Assembly: GCF_001428255.1 (NCBI RefSeq)
Contig: NZ_LMRW01000008.1
Coordinates: 1,118 to 65,117, forward strand
Reading direction: 5' to 3'
DNA length: 64,000 bases
Source: Agromyces sp. Soil535
GTDB taxonomy: Bacteria; Actinomycetota; Actinomycetes; Actinomycetales; Microbacteriaceae
Shown: positions 4,750 to 61,822 of the stretch, in pieces
Position numbering within the stretch: position 1 is the first letter of the stretch
Layout: each line of letters begins with the position of its first letter
Translations under genes and position numbers: made by a program
Notes under the pieces: generated by a model
Seen by the model: the letters and a program-made list of their open reading frames with translations, nothing else
The model's database searches: none
Told to the model about the DNA's origin: nothing

Positions 4750-4755
4750 GTCTCA

Positions 4756-4846
4756 GGCTCCTCACGTGGCGCCATCCAGGCCAACTCCCCCAGGGCGGAA
4801 ACGCAGCAAGGGTAACCGGGCTCTGGCGGGTGCGTGAGGGGTCCCA
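4756..4846 (+). ncRNA. ffs: Signal recognition particle RNA, small bacterial (4.5S) type
   Basis: The 5' segment CTCCTCACG pairs with CGTGAGGGG at the 3' end. The apical domain carries the universal SRP symmetric and asymmetric loop sequence (AGGGCGGAAACGCAGCAAGGG, near 4791-4812, with its GGAA tetraloop). The RNA binds Ffh and FtsY to target ribosomes to the membrane. Its 3' end abuts tRNA-Ser, so the two are probably transcribed together. The exact ends are estimated. Confidence 0.93.
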
Positions 4847-4934
4847 GGAGGATTCGCCTAGTGGCCTATGGCGCACGCTTGGAAAGCGTGTTGGGTGAAA
4901 GCCCTCGGGGGTTCGAATCCCCCATCCTCCGCCA
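4847..4934 (+). tRNA. tRNA-Ser (anticodon GGA)
   Basis: The acceptor stem GGAGGAT (4847-4853) pairs with ATCCTCC (4924-4930), followed by discriminator G and an encoded CCA (4932-4934). The anticodon GGA is at 4881-4883. The long variable arm and GTTCGAATCC T-loop fit a class II serine tRNA reading UCC/UCU. It starts immediately after the SRP RNA. No second copy of its 3' end, which would mark an integrated element, was found downstream. Confidence 0.97.
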
Positions 4935-18826: not shown

Positions 18827-19109
18827 GCCTCGACGCTATCGCGGCGGGACGTGACGAGTCGATGGGCGGCGGTACGGCCGTGCGCGGAAACCGAACGGAA
18901 TGTCGGCCCGCGCCGGCGCGGCATCCGCTCACCGTCCCGTCGCGGGCGGCGCGGCATCCGCTCGCCCCTCCCATCACCGCCTTGGCGGCCGATGCAGGAA
19001 CTTCTGACCGATCGTCGGCGTGTCGCGGCGCCCGTGGCGGCGCTGGTCGGCGTTTCTTCCTGCACTTCGCACCCGCGCCAGGCCTGAAACGGAGCGGGCA
19101 GCCGAGGGG
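18827..19109. other. Intergenic region with heptamer repeats and a hairpin element
   Basis: This 283-bp gap has no credible gene. It carries two direct copies of GCGGCATCCGCTC (18919-18931 and 18951-18963) and the degenerate hairpin element described at 18993-19064. Confidence 0.7.
18993..19064. repeat. Hairpin element, copy 1 (degenerate)
   Basis: The left arm TGCAGGAACTTC (18993-19004) is intact; the right arm retains only TTCCTGCA (19057-19064). The interior contains CGGCGTGTCGCGGC, shared with copies 2 and 3. It lies just downstream of the DUF559-type gene. Confidence 0.65.
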
Positions 19110-20075
19110 TCAGCCCGTGATGGGCGGCAGCCCGCGATGCCGCCACACGATCTTGGCATCCGCGACGGTGCGGGCCACGGCGGCGAACGTCATCGGCCAG
19201 TCCTCGAGCACGTGCCGCGCACTCGGCCTGACGACCGGGATGCCGAAGACCTGCCCGACGAGCGTGCGATCTCGGTCGGCGAAGAACGCGTCGGACCCCG
19301 AATGGAATTCGCGGCCGTCGACTTCGAAGAGGACGCATCCGTCGATGACCCCGTCATACCTGCCGAATCCCGCGAGATCGACCTGAGGTTCGACGAGGAA
19401 CCCGGCATCCGACATCCGCCGTACGAACAGGCTCTCCGCTCCCGACTCGGGCTTGCCGGTGAAGTCGTCCCTGAGGGCGGCGCACCGATTCGGGAGCGAC
19501 GCCATCACCGTGTCCACCTCCCGTCGCGTGAGGACCCGCTCATGGAGTGCGGAGTCGATCGCCGCGCTCGCGTGCTCGGCGTCCATGCAGCGCACGGCCG
19601 CGGCGAGGGCCGTCTGTGGTGAGACGATCCAGTCGAGCGCACGTCGTGGCGCGAGCTCCCGTGCCCAGTGCACGCGCGGCGGGGCATCCGATGCGAGACG
19701 GACCGTTCGCGCCCGCCGCTTCCGATCCGGCACCAACGGATGCCACACGCCGGGGCTCGCAACCCCGGGGACCTGTGGCGACTGGCCGAGCCGAGCGGCG
19801 GTGCGCGGGACGTGGAGGTGGAGGGCGTCGTCGGTGCCGGCCCACACGCCGAGGCGACGGAGTGCCGACGAGCATCCGATGCGGGCGCCGGTGGCGATCG
19901 CGCGCAGCTGGTCCTGGTCGGCGAGCGGTGACGCGATCCAGCCGCGCCGCGGGCGCCTCACGAACCCAGCGGCGAGCGCCGCGTGCAGCGAGGCGTCAGG
20001 GATGCCGCGCGCTCGCAGCGACGCGACGCGTGCGACGTGCCCGAGCCGGGCGAGTTCACGAAGGAGATCGGGCAT
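19110..20075 (-). CDS. DUF559 nuclease-like protein with AbiEi-like N-terminus
   Basis: A 321-residue protein. The N-terminal 100 residues resemble the winged-helix AbiEi antitoxin-like module frequent in actinobacteria (GHVARVASLRARGI...FVRRPRRGWIAS). The C-terminal 110 residues show the DUF559/Vsr-like PD-(D/E)xK pattern: DLAGFGRYDGVID, then VLFEVDGREFHSG, then DRDRTLVGQVFGIPVVR, with candidate metal ligands in YDGVID and FEVDG. The ATG at 20075 is chosen because GGAGG lies 9 nt upstream; the open frame continues into the hairpin repeat and is not real coding there. Role unknown. Hairpin elements lie on both sides. Confidence 0.8.
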   Translation of the reverse strand: MPDLLRELARLGHVARVASLRARGIPDASLHAALAAGFVRRPRRGWIASPLADQDQLRAIATGARIGCSSALRRLGVWAGTDDALHLHVPRTAARLGQSPQVPGVASPGVWHPLVPDRKRRARTVRLASDAPPRVHWARELAPRRALDWIVSPQTALAAAVRCMDAEHASAAIDSALHERVLTRREVDTVMASLPNRCAALRDDFTGKPESGAESLFVRRMSDAGFLVEPQVDLAGFGRYDGVIDGCVLFEVDGREFHSGSDAFFADRDRTLVGQVFGIPVVRPSARHVLEDWPMTFAAVARTVADAKIVWRHRGLPPITG

Positions 20076-20163
20076 GGCGAGCATCCTCCGGCGCCGAGGC
20101 GCGGCCGTCGGGGACTGAGCGGCGGGCAGTGAAACCCCCCGTCGCATGCGGTCGTGGGAGGGC

Positions 20164-20276
20164 GAGTGGAAATGGCTCCCGAGGTACCGCAGGAACTTCC
20201 GTCGAGACACCGACGCGTCGCGGCGGCGACTCGCCGCGGAAGGGCGGAAGTTCCTGCATTGACAGGGCCGGGGAGG
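20164..20276. repeat. Direct repeat A with hairpin element copy 2
   Basis: Perfect 12-bp arms GCAGGAACTTCC (20189-20200) and GGAAGTTCCTGC (20246-20257) enclose 45 nt that itself contains a CGCGGCG/CGCCGCG stem. Flanks from GAGTGGAAAT to CAGGG match repeat B at 20364-20475, offset by 200 bp. Confidence 0.85.
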
Positions 20277-20279
20277 ACC

Positions 20280-20351
20280 GGGAGGGACGGGAGGGACGGG
20301 AGGGACGGGAGGGACGGGAGGGACGGGAGGGACGGGAGGGACGGGAGGGAC
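20280..20351 (+). repeat. Eight tandem GGGAGGGAC units (G-quadruplex-prone)
   Basis: Eight exact 9-bp units, with a ninth differing in its last base. Each unit has two runs of three G separated by 1 and 2 nt, so any two units satisfy the G-quadruplex consensus on the + strand. The array lies between the two direct repeats. Confidence 0.95.
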
Positions 20352-20363
20352 GGGAGGGAGGAC

Positions 20364-20475
20364 GAGTGGAAATACTCCCGAGGTACTGCAGGAACTTCCG
20401 TCGAGATCCCGGCGTGTCGCGGGCGCGACCGGCAGGGGAAGGGCAGAAGTTCCTGCATAAGCAGGGACCGGGAGG
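20364..20475. repeat. Direct repeat B with hairpin element copy 3
   Basis: Perfect 12-bp arms TGCAGGAACTTC (20387-20398) and GAAGTTCCTGCA (20446-20457). The interior holds CGGCGTGTCGCGG as in copy 1. Overall similarity to repeat A extends well beyond the hairpin. Confidence 0.85.
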
Positions 20476-58864: not shown

Positions 58865-58913
58865 TTGATTCGTCGGGGCACTGTACGCACATCGCGATCC
58901 GCCGCGCAAGTGT

Positions 58914-58985
58914 TTTGTCGGAACTGAGAACAAATGGCTTTCGGGCCGGGCGGACTTGCGGCGGATGCCGCGTCGGCCTTATGTT
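58914..58985 (+). promoter_or_regulatory. xylA promoter region with TTTGT/ACAAA motif
   Basis: TTGCGG (58956-58961) and TATGTT (58980-58985) with an 18-bp spacer form a plausible promoter. TTTGT (58914-58918) and ACAAA (58930-58934) are an inverted pair upstream, and TTGT...ACAA recurs at 58984-58999 over the likely start. TTTGTT-type arms recall ROK-type xylose repressor sites; the ROK protein at 42489 is a candidate. Confidence 0.45.
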
Positions 58986-59030
58986 GTATATGCCAACAAA
59001 TCACCGATGACGCTGAAAGGCGGATCTCCC

Positions 59031-60224
59031 ATGGCCATCGCGCCCACCCGCGACGACAAGTTCTCATTCGGCCTCTGGACCGTGGGCTACAACGGCACCG
59101 ACCCGTTCGGCGGCCCCACGCGGCATCCGCTCGACGTCGTGCACGCGGTCGAGAAGCTCGACGAACTCGGCGCCTACGGCCTCACGTTCCACGACGACGA
59201 CCTCTTCGCGTTCGGCTCGACCGACGCCGAGCGCCAGCGGCAGATCGACCGGCTGACGGGCGCCCTCGAGGCCACCGGCATCATCGTGCCGATGGTCACC
59301 ACCAACCTGTTCAGCGCGCCCGTGTTCAAGGACGGCGGCTTCACCTCGAACGACCGGCAGGTGCGGCGCTTCGCGCTCCGCAAGGTGCTGCGAAACCTCG
59401 ACCTCGCCGCCGAACTCGGCGCGAAGACCTTCGTGATGTGGGGCGGCCGCGAAGGCGCCGAGTACGACGCCGCGAAGGACATCCGTTCGGCCCTCGAGCG
59501 CTACCGCGAGGCCGTGAACCTGCTCGGCGACTACGTGACCGACAAGGGCTACGACATCCGGTTCGCGATCGAGCCGAAGCCCAACGAACCCCGCGGCGAC
59601 ATCCTGCTGCCGACCGTCGGCCACGCCCTCGCGTTCATCGACTCGCTCGAGCGCCCCGAGCTCGTGGGCCTCAACCCCGAGGTCGGCCACGAGCAGATGG
59701 CGGGCCTCAACTTCGCCGCCGGCATCGCCCAGGCGCTGTACCACGGCAAGCTCTTCCACATCGACCTCAACGGCCAGCGCGGCATCAAGTACGACCAGGA
59801 CCTCGTGTTCGGCCACGGCGACCTGCACAACGCGTTCGCCCTCGTCGACCTGCTCGAGAACGGCGGCCCCGGGGGCACGCCGACCTACACGGGTCCGCGC
59901 CACTTCGACTACAAGCCTTCGCGCACGGAGGACGAGACCGGAGTCTGGGACTCGGCCGCCGCCAACATGCGCACCTACCTGCTGCTCAAGGAGCGCACCG
60001 CAGCGTTCCGCGCCGACCCCGAGGTGCAGGCGGCGCTCGAAGCCGCTCGCGTCTACGAGCTCGCCCAGCCGACGCTCGAGTGGGGCGAGACCTACGACGA
60101 CCTCCTCGCCGACCGCTCGGCGTTTGAGGACTTCGACCCGTCGGCGTACCTCGGCGGCAAGGGCTTCGGCTTCGTGCGCCTGCAGCAGCTCGCGACCGAG
60201 CACGTACTCGGCGCGCGCGGTTAG
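59031..60224 (+). CDS. xylA: Xylose isomerase (class I)
   Basis: A 397-residue actinobacterial-type metalloenzyme converting D-xylose to D-xylulose. Catalytic H54 and D57 (FHDDDLF), metal ligands E181 and K183 ([10 protein letters not shown]), E217 and H220 (NPEVGHEQ), D245 and D255/D257 (IKYDQDL) are all visible. AAAGGCGG lies before the ATG. It is followed after 191 bp by xylB. Receives xylose released by GH31, GH3 and GH43 enzymes encoded nearby. Confidence 0.98.
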
Positions 60225-60290
60225 GACCTGCGGGCCTCTCCCCACCCATCCACCCGCCTGCCTCTCCCCCGGCCCAGCCGGACTCCCTAC

Positions 60291-60361
60291 TGCAGGAACT
60301 TCGGGGTGACACGCCGATCCGAGTCGGTCGACTCACCCGAGGCATCCGAGAAGTTCCTGCA
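60291..60361. repeat. Hairpin element, copy 4, between xylA and xylB
   Basis: Arms TGCAGGAACTTC (60291-60302) and GAAGTTCCTGCA (60350-60361) are perfect and extend to 13 bp with a terminal C/G. The interior, read on the minus strand, contains GATCGGCGTGTC as in copy 1. Otherwise the 60225-60415 gap holds only the xylB ribosome site (AGGAGG). Confidence 0.85.
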
Positions 60362-60415
60362 GTCGGCGGGAGACGAGGAGCATGAGCAGGACCGAACCCC
60401 CCATCAGGAGGCACC

Positions 60416-61822
60416 ATGTCGCTCGTCGCCGGCGTCGACTCGTCGACGCAGTCGTGCAAGGTCGTGATCCGGGATGCCGCGACCGGGGCGCTCGTGCGCT
60501 CCGGCCGGGCCGCGCATCCCGACGGCACCGAGGTCGACCCCGCCGCCTGGTGGGGCGCCCTGCTGCAGGCGTTCGCCGACGCCGGTGGGCTCGACGGCGT
60601 CGAGGCGATCTCGATCGGCGGGCAGCAGCACGGCATGGTCGTGCTCGACGCCGAGGGTCGGGTCGTCCGCGACGCCCTGCTCTGGAACGACACGCGGTCG
60701 GCGCAGGCGGCCCGCGACCTGATCGCCGAGGTCGGTGCCGACGCGTACGCACGGCGCACGGGGGTCGTGCCCGTCGCGTCGTTCACCGCCACGAAGCTGC
60801 GGTGGCTGCGCGTCACCGAGCCCGCGAACGCCGAGCGCGTCGCGGCCGTCGCGCTCCCCCACGATTGGCTGACATGGCGCCTGCGCGGCTACGGCCCGGC
60901 GGGCGAGTCGCCGCTCGGGCCGGTGCTCGAGGAGCTCATGACCGACCGTTCCGACGCGAGTGGCACGGCGTACTGGGGCGCAGGCGGGTACGACCGCGAG
61001 CTTCTCGTGCGGGCGCTCGGGCATGACGCGATCCTCCCGCGCGTGCTCGGGCCCGCCGAGGCCGCGGGTCGCACGCCCGACGGCATCCTCGTGGGCCCCG
61101 GCGCGGGCGACAACGCGGCGGCCGCGCTCGGCCTCGACGCGGCCTCCGGCGACGTCGTCGTGTCGATCGGCACGAGCGGCACGGTCTTCGCCGTGACGGA
61201 TGCCCCGGTGGCCGACCCCTCGGGCACGGTCGCGGGCTTCGCGGATGCCACGGGGCGCTTCCTCCCCCTCATCGCCACGCTCAACGCGGCCCGCGTGCTC
61301 GACGCGACCGCGGGTCTCCTCGGCGTCGACCATGCGGAGCTCGGCCGCCTCGCGCTCGACGCCGAGCCCGGGGCATCCGGCGCCGTGCTCGTGCCGTACT
61401 TCGAGGGCGAGCGCACACCGAACCTGCCGCACGCGACGGCGTCGTTCTCGGGACTCACGCTGGCCAACACCACCCGGCCATCGATCGCCCGGGCGGCGAT
61501 CGAGGGCATGCTGTGCGGACTCGCCGACGGCCTCGACGCCGTGCTCGGCCAGGGAGTCGACGCACAGCGGGTGCTGCTCATCGGCGGTGCCGCGCAGAAC
61601 CCCGCCGTGCGGCGCATCGCCGCGCAGGTCTTCGACGTGCCGGTCACCGTGCCCGAGCCGGGCGAGTACGTCGCCGACGGCGCGGCGCGTCAGGCGGCCT
61701 GGGTGCTCGCGGGCGAGCGGCCGACGTGGCCGATCGCGGCGGCCGACCCGATGGCCGTCGACATGCGCGAGGTCATCCGCCGACAGTACGCCGAGCGCAC
61801 CGCAGCCGGCGCCACGCGCTGA
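60416..61822 (+). CDS. xylB: Xylulokinase
   Basis: A 468-residue FGGY kinase phosphorylating D-xylulose to xylulose 5-phosphate. Phosphate-1 motif [10 protein letters not shown], substrate loop [11 protein letters not shown] and WNDTRS, ADP/adenosine segment [14 protein letters not shown] and [15 protein letters not shown] are present. AGGAGG 4 nt before the ATG. It completes the route from xylosides to the pentose phosphate pathway and is probably transcribed with xylA. Convergent with the STAND gene, 12 bp apart. Confidence 0.97.

Follow-up and report, generated by a model that had tools for sequence, protein, structure and literature searches.

A stretch of 64,000 nt from Agromyces sp. Soil535 (contig NZ_LMRW01000008.1, positions 1,118 to 65,117; hereafter, the window) carries a DUF559/MTES_1575-type gene (19110..20075, minus strand, 321 amino acids) surrounded by paired inverted half-sites. 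Comparison with other genomes showed that such genes are often bracketed by elements of their own type, that the half-sites are allele specific and have a phased geometry, and that the elements are dispersed and turn over between species. The pairing of the nuclease gene with its own sites is well supported. An earlier note on this DNA had proposed that a nuclease-fold protein, rather than a REP-associated tyrosine transposase (RAYT; REP, repetitive extragenic palindrome), is paired with a hairpin element; the non-RAYT pairing itself is strongly supported by bracketing, by the tracking of element and protein, and by dispersal. With modest confidence, we favor a probably selfish DNA system in two parts, a nuclease and its cognate paired sites, that would be mobile or homing-like. 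Paired binding, cutting, and mobilization or spread by repair are the steps that we infer.

Elements in the window and in the source genome

An element consists of the paired inverted half-sites TGCAGGAA and TTCCTGCA, measures about 71 nt end to end (range, 71 to 73 nt), and frequently holds the inner motif CGACACGCCG/CGGCGTGTCG. Three elements surround the gene within 1.5 kb: one downstream (18993..19064, 72 nt, 45 nt past the stop codon) and two upstream, at 20188..20258 (71 nt, 112 nt ahead of the start codon, the gap being 113 nt from its 69-nt core) and at 20387..20457 (71 nt, 311 nt ahead of the start codon). A solo element (60291..60361, 71 nt), absent or replaced in relatives, is flanked by a sugar-isomerase-like TIM-barrel gene (58869-60224) and an FGGY kinase gene (60416-61822). 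No strand is assigned to these elements.

The earlier note had placed four elements here, three of them beside the gene, and both statements are borne out, its 20189-20257 being the core, with 13-bp arms, of an element whose outermost pair is mismatched (20188-20258). Its description of 12- to 13-bp arms with a shared interior stands only in part. The arms are of this length in the elements at 20188, 20387, and 60291 (12 bp in the last two), but in 18993-19064 exact pairing is limited to the outer 8 bp, the right arm being TTTCTTCCTGCA. The interior CGGCGTGTC is present in the 18993 and 20387 elements and, as its reverse complement, in 60291, but is degenerate (CGACGCGTC) in 20188. The conserved features are the outer half-sites and their distance and not a 12-bp hairpin with a fixed loop sequence.

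When up to 2 mismatches are allowed, the window contains 14 occurrences of the arm, compared to a mean of 2.04 and a maximum of 7 after shuffling. Across the 4.83-Mb source genome, TGCAGGAA-N44-68-TTCCTGCA was found at 10 places (eight of 71 nt, one of 72 nt, and one of 73 nt), while the reversed control gave 0; with up to 2 mismatches at a fixed length of 71 nt, there were 14 elements versus 3 in the control. A 9-nt minisatellite, (GGGAGGGAC)n, lies between the two upstream elements at 20271-20360.

Genes often lie between elements of their own type

In genome G076, which belongs to a different genus of the Microbacteriaceae, a homolog lies between two TGCAGGAA elements (G and L numbers designate genomes and loci). 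Because of this bracketed homolog, we searched gene flanks in a manner blind to sequence, scoring any word that has its reverse complement 45 to 110 nt away and is present in both the upstream and the downstream 450-nt flank. Such a common word of k ≥ 8 was found at 32 of 91 loci (the best-scoring part of a longer list, plus the window and L044), compared to 7 of 910 mismatched flank pairs. Among 31 named loci (Microcella, Agreia, Plantibacter, Micropruina, and others, Micropruina lying outside the window's family), 12 scored at k ≥ 9 versus 12 of 620 mismatched pairs. When the gene position was shifted, the named loci scored 0/28, 0/28, 0/26, and 0/26, against 12/29 at the true position. Eight named loci duplicate members of the 91-locus set (L166, L169, L171, L176, L178, L180, L181, and L189) and were removed for the total count, the phasing, and the tracking described below. 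Altogether, the same half-site pair is present on both sides of the gene at 39 of 114 distinct DUF559-type loci.

The flanking elements are 59 to 113 nt long with mostly unpaired interiors. At 31 of the 39 loci, the elements on the two sides differ by no more than 1 nt in length, though their interiors are often unlike. The upstream element lies a median of 107 nt ahead of the start codon and the downstream element a median of 39 nt past the stop codon.

Palindromes are common in these intergenic regions, and the earlier note had allowed for a coincidence between an abundant repeat and a common gene family. This is contradicted by the mismatched-flank and shifted-gene controls, as well as by protein-site tracking and helical phasing (see below), and we consider its probability negligible. 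Chance clustering was rejected on the basis of the first two controls.

Half-sites are gene specific and follow the protein

Half-sites differ from gene to gene (AAATGCAGGA, CAATTCAGGATC, TGCGCAACTCAGGA, CCCAAATCACGGAG, and many others), and across 43 loci half-site similarity correlates with protein identity (rho of 0.27; 0 of 2000 permutations as high). At the window locus, seven half-site types stand beside diverged alleles within the same genus: TGCAGGAA in G000 (the source genome), G200, and G218; TGTAGGAA, with both arms changed, in G219; CGGGAGGAA in G222; ATCAGGAAAA in G079; GCAATTCAGGACGAA in G233; GCGGATGAGGCAGAAC in G244; and CACGGATGCTGCGGAT in G204. The inner CGGCGTGTCG motif is kept across these types. 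Homologs at this locus are 43 to 76% identical, versus 83 to 93% for the neighbor gene. The pair is present on both sides at 6 of 10 loci, on one side at 3, and on neither at 1 (L142 in G228), which was assessed with only 90 nt of upstream flank; in the genome scan, an exact element lies immediately upstream of this gene of G228. Half-site sequence is shown by these comparisons to be specific to each gene and to change with the protein.

Half-site spacing is phased in helical turns

Spacing was measured from CAGG to CCTG, which gave 55 spacings from gene flanks. They cluster at 53 to 55, 64 to 68, 75 to 78, 85 to 86, and 98 bp; the values 36 and 51 occur once each, and 104 occurs twice. A period of 10.4 bp fits the 55 spacings best (R of 0.69, p~5e-12), and a collapsed set in which each spacing was counted once per protein cluster at 50% identity (42 values) gave an R of 0.66 (p~9e-9). 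The same flanks contain 169 other inverted repeats, which show no phasing (R of 0.05). Length differences of more than 1 between the two elements of a gene amount to 11, 11, 11, 10, 22, 31, and 19, plus one of 2. G127 has 37 places, and the 20 that were listed measure 76 nt (19 places) or 77 nt (1 place), with unrelated interiors.

The phasing suggests a protein pair on double-stranded DNA rather than a folded hairpin, since spacing by whole turns suits two proteins on one face of the DNA, whereas a hairpin loop needs no such spacing. The single-stranded hairpin was rejected as the conserved feature because the spacing is phased in helical turns. With this phasing and with interiors that are mostly unpaired, the hairpin substrate put forward in the earlier note finds no support.

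A predicted AbiEi-like DNA-binding part with a nuclease domain

Because of Pfam matches in its relatives and of structural and profile matches, the window protein is predicted to be an AbiEi-like DNA-binding part fused to a Vsr/EDxHD-fold nuclease. Its own Pfam matches to AbiEi_4 (E of 0.0034) and the MTES_1575 restriction endonuclease (REase) family (E of 0.035) both fall under the curated cutoffs. At an E of ≤0.01, MTES_1575 matches 19 of 24 aligned members, DUF559 matches 11, AbiEi_4 matches 10, and Vsr and AbiEi_3_N match 1 each. The predicted structure is confident (predicted local distance difference test [pLDDT] score of 90.8 and predicted template modeling [pTM] score of 0.89). The best Foldseek matches are Rv2827c (1zel) and AbiEi (6y8q), followed by the I-Bth0305I domain 3r3p, with a TMt of 0.81 but an E of 0.59. 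VIA-align 2 aligned AbiEi 6y8q_D over residues 1 to 206 (Z of 7.3, root mean square deviation [rmsd] of 4.7, 159 aligned) and matched the nuclease part to 3r3p_A (I-Bth0305I; Z of 10.5, rmsd of 2.1, 96 aligned) and Vsr 1cw0 (Z of 9.1), with a further match to 3hrl (Z of 10.1). A profile search retrieved 3hrl (E of 2e-7) and 3r3p (E of 0.009). Of the putative catalytic residues E214, D241, H258, and D267, H258 is not opposite a 3r3p histidine in the profile alignment to 3r3p. The Vsr match and the MTES_1575 matches in members agree with the DUF559/Vsr-like C terminus recognized earlier.

The N-terminal winged-helix domain (19923..20075, minus strand; residues 1 to 51) has a Pfam AbiEi_4 match at residues 4 to 45 and structural matches to winged helices and to AbiEi 6y8q, and it presumably reads the half-sites. 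The middle AbiEi-like region (19458..19922, minus strand; residues 52 to 206) contains the invariant H86 and H136. E214, Q231, D241, H258, and D267 in the C-terminal nuclease domain (19149..19448, minus strand; residues 210 to 309) are among the residues invariant across the 24 diverse members, and E251 and D253 are near-invariant.

The AbiEi and "HEase" profiles of the defense library PADLOC match two of the three relatives scanned (L044 and L075). Together with the fast divergence of the protein relative to its neighbor, this speaks for a defense or addiction module, in which the nuclease would attack DNA with or without paired sites and the chromosomal copies would be decoys or self-marks. 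However, the window protein itself has no match in NCBIfam, PADLOC, or PHROGs, and no partner toxin or methylase was found directly beside its gene, whose neighbors by Pfam are a saccharopine dehydrogenase and a uricase. We regard such a module as highly unlikely. Viral contigs yielded a single pattern match, with no relative of the window protein confirmed among them, and the plasmid and phage collections gave one distant match each. Two more diverged homolog regions are present in the source genome (C5:92659-93468 and C12:513157-513438).

Elements are dispersed in genomes that carry homologs

Exact TGCAGGAA pairs were counted in 60 genomes of the genus: 10 in G000, 5 in G200, 15 in G203, 2 in G218, 22 in G228, 1 in G234, 11 in G254, and 0 in the 53 others. 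Of the 6 genomes whose homolog reaches 64% identity, a threshold chosen after the data were seen, 5 have exact elements versus 2 of the 54 others (Fisher p=2e-5, genomes being counted here and below as independent and relatedness and genome size not being adjusted for). The sixth genome is G219, where the half-sites are changed. The contrast is 5/9 versus 2/51 at 60% identity (p=4e-4) and 5/14 versus 2/46 at 50% (p=0.006); these weaker figures are expected if protein and sites are paired, because alleles of lower identity carry other half-sites.

Elements of the AANTNCAGGA type were found in 1 to 37 copies in 33 of 199 family genomes (1 match in the control). A homolog at an E of ≤1e-10, found in 124 of the 199 genomes, is present in 30 of the 33 genomes with these elements versus 94 of the 166 without (Fisher p=1e-4). 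The earlier note would have taken elements in genomes without a homolog as a refutation. By this test, there are exceptions to the pairing, namely, G203 and G058, in which no partner gene was found for the many elements. Counted with up to 2 mismatches allowed, TGCAGGAA-type copies number 42 in G203 (control, 2), and G248 has 8 near-matches (control, 0) and no homolog found at an E of ≤1e-15.

Eleven gene loci were read, G127 included, and the dispersed arm type stands on both sides of the gene at one of them, L326 (G029 C22). The flanking elements of L326 have a CAGG spacing of 78, and the listed dispersed 77-nt AAATGCAGGAG copies have one of 67, about one helical turn shorter. Among the genomes listed, a copy-like appearance is limited to G203 and to local tandem pairs. 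G203 contains tandem arrays of TGCAGGAAC-type elements (C1:1268515-1268766, 1609743-1610625, 2445179-2445604, and 2508935-2509433), about 170 to 220 nt apart and with similar interiors, and is the best case for recent copying.

Solo copies turn over at orthologous intergenic spots

At the locus of the window gene, a homolog is present at 10 of 30 genus loci (own included). Both neighbors were measurable at 10 of the 30, with the gene in 2, a gap of 48 to 156 nt in 7, and a gap of 276 nt in G229 that holds a solo palindrome with other arms. At the spot of the solo element 60291-60361, gaps of 10 to 23 nt were seen at 7 of the 30 genus loci (counting the own locus), G254 has an orthologous element, and other relatives have different palindromes, as read by eye. 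The palindrome families seen in relatives at the spot orthologous to 60225-60415 are CGCCGAGTG and its kin, GGTCGAGTAGCGA, and CGCCACTTC (loci L241, L243, L253, L255, and L256; L248, L254, and L265; L240, L245, and L250). Between glyA and folD, there are 132 nt in the source genome, 7 to 8 nt in 6 of 10 relatives, and other palindromes in 4 of 10. A third own solo is absent in 4 of 4 relatives. The own solo loci queried numbered five; L018, L022, and L028 were dropped, having no comparable two-sided flanks. At the intergenic spots examined, comparison of relatives shows solo copies to be present, absent, or replaced between species.

Several unrelated palindrome families at the same intergenic spots would be consistent with movement by a different enzyme, such as a Y1/HUH transposase or a recombinase, with the DUF559 gene a frequent binder or passenger. 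Similarly, G005, G058, G139, and G203 carry elements without a homolog at the limits used or without a matching flanked one. However, element type follows DUF559 allele type, and the elements bracket DUF559 genes, so that this explanation appears unlikely to us.

Seven orthologous solo locus pairs were found between species. In eight element comparisons, 15 to 16 of 16 half-site bases match (with arm-edge gap columns in two), and the interiors have 34 to 44 matches in 56 to 63 columns; the pairs were located by half-site pattern, so half-site conservation is biased upward. With this bias, the retention of half-sites beside diverging interiors is what an AbiEi-like autoregulator with a scattered regulon would give; such a protein would bind paired operators both beside its gene and at promoters of the host, and its nuclease domain would be inactive or otherwise used. 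The position of the upstream element ahead of the start codon points the same way, as does the autoregulation of AbiEi and Rv2827c via inverted repeats (PMC7319586, in excerpt). On the other hand, a downstream element also exists, and the solo positions examined are species specific and turn over. Furthermore, two solos lie between codirectional genes at spots with 7- to 23-nt gaps in relatives, and the putative active-site residues are invariant in 24 diverse members. We therefore find a regulon doubtful as the explanation.

Known RNA families at gathering thresholds gave only one signal recognition particle (SRP) RNA and one tRNA in the window, the small SRP RNA gene being directly followed by the tRNA gene (4753-4931). 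With no element matched at these thresholds, a known RNA family was rejected as the identity of the elements, and ordinary terminators were rejected because of the long unpaired interiors and the absence of a T run, judged by eye. The words CGGCATCCGC and GCGGATGCCG seem to be frequent in the sequences read, for example, at 18914-18966 of the window.

Comparison with known systems

REPtrons combine RAYT genes with palindromes that bear a GTAG tag (PMC3733652, in excerpt). The present arrangement resembles REP/RAYT systems in that the gene is flanked by palindromes, solo copies are dispersed in intergenic DNA, and the families are species specific. However, the partner has a Vsr/EDxHD fold and an AbiEi winged helix and is not an HUH/Y1 tyrosine transposase: no HUH/Y1 domain is among the Pfam matches of the window protein and members (AbiEi_4, AbiEi_3_N, MTES_1575, DUF559, and Vsr only). 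The elements differ as well, since no GTAG was seen by eye at the ends of TGCAGGAA and related arms, and the flanking elements are 59 to 113 nt long, their interiors mostly unpaired and their half-sites in helical phase, a phasing that would favor double-stranded sites over a single-stranded hairpin substrate. Miniature inverted-repeat transposable elements (MITEs) are likewise short, nonautonomous inverted-repeat elements with a presumed partner enzyme. Here, no target-site duplication was recognized, and the partner does not have the fold of a DDE transposase.

The Vsr mismatch endonuclease acts in repair and is not known to have dispersed elements of its own; the likeness to Vsr and to the MTES_1575 REase lies in the nuclease fold (1cw0 and the Pfam matches given above). 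MTES_1575 is described as a Vsr-type REase (PMC3710099, in excerpt). The EDxHD homing endonuclease I-Bth0305I is reported to dimerize on a target that spans almost 60 bp (PMC3943268, in excerpt), and the likeness would extend from the fold of the catalytic domain (3r3p_A, Z of 10.5) to a long target read by a dimer. Unlike a homing gene, the gene studied here does not interrupt its target, whole sites being present on both sides and dispersed, and an AbiEi-like domain is the predicted DNA binder. AbiEi and Rv2827c (type IV toxin-antitoxin) share the winged helix and the middle domain, and these related proteins bind inverted repeats (PMC7319586, in excerpt). Their repeats are 3 or 13 bp apart, in contrast to the wide phased spacing seen here, and the C-terminal Vsr/EDxHD-fold nuclease domain and the sites on both sides and dispersed are further differences. 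In addition, at the window locus no nucleotidyltransferase toxin gene is adjacent, unlike in AbiE.

The system lacks one defining feature each of RAYT, homing-gene, and AbiE membership, while by behavior alone it could be classed as a REP/RAYT-like arrangement. The literature searched contained no report of a nuclease-palindrome pairing and no assigned role for DUF559-type genes.

Proposed mechanism and its strength

According to the explanation that we favor, a nuclease acting with its cognate paired sites, two protein molecules would bind both half-sites on the same face of the helix via their winged helices, and the nuclease domains would nick or cut at the paired sites. Repair or recombination there would then give rise to new solo sites and spread the gene as a site-gene-site unit. 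The logic would be that of REP/RAYT, with a flanked gene and dispersed solos, run by a restriction/homing-type nuclease on double-stranded paired sites. Presence/absence patterns are consistent with mobilization in trans, and, by analogy with AbiEi, the upstream copy probably doubles as an autoregulation operator. Tentatively, and with the balance just short of even, we extend this to the family: AbiEi-winged-helix DUF559/MTES_1575 proteins may serve as partner enzymes to mobile elements that make up a large and so far undescribed class in actinobacteria. In these elements, half-sites would coevolve with the winged helix, and the protein would cut and drive the copying of solos and site-gene-site units. 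A nuclease of the restriction/homing type, with double-stranded DNA as its substrate, would then take on a RAYT-like role.

Several observations weigh against this explanation. As for the sites, an exact common 8-bp pair was not found at 75 of the 114 loci. Three of the 55 spacings (51 and the two of 104) are clearly off phase, with a lag of more than 4, and the 53-bp spacings lag by 2.7. Flanking copies of one gene are direct in nine cases and inverted in five, by a clear margin; direct repeats are thus not consistent, and direct-repeat duplication was rejected as a rule. As for the partner, no homolog at an E of ≤1e-10 was found in the element-carrying genomes G005, G058 (15 elements), and G139. 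The 5 kb around the best homolog of G203 contain no TGCAGGAA inverted repeat of at least 9 bp, and in G127, which has the most copies in the AANTNCAGGA survey, the dispersed arm type is not at the one gene examined.

Movement is the weakest step of the mechanism. Insertion borders are not sharp at glyA-folD (132 versus 7 to 8 nt) and at 60291, and no target-site duplication was recognized by eye between occupied and empty sites, where the flanking genes themselves differ by about 6 to 20%. Moreover, the interiors of dispersed copies are mostly unrelated in the genomes listed, while recent copying predicts likeness. For these reasons, selection on half-sites or a regulatory role might account for the pattern.

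DUF559-type genes are frequent in the Microbacteriaceae, 124 of 199 genomes having a homolog at an E of ≤1e-10. If the proposed pairing is true, a large set of hypothetical proteins would be nucleases that bind DNA at specific sites and whose own flanks reveal their targets, and the matched protein-DNA pairs would form a natural series for studies of specificity evolution. Some of the rapid change in the intergenic palindromes of this family would be explained as well.

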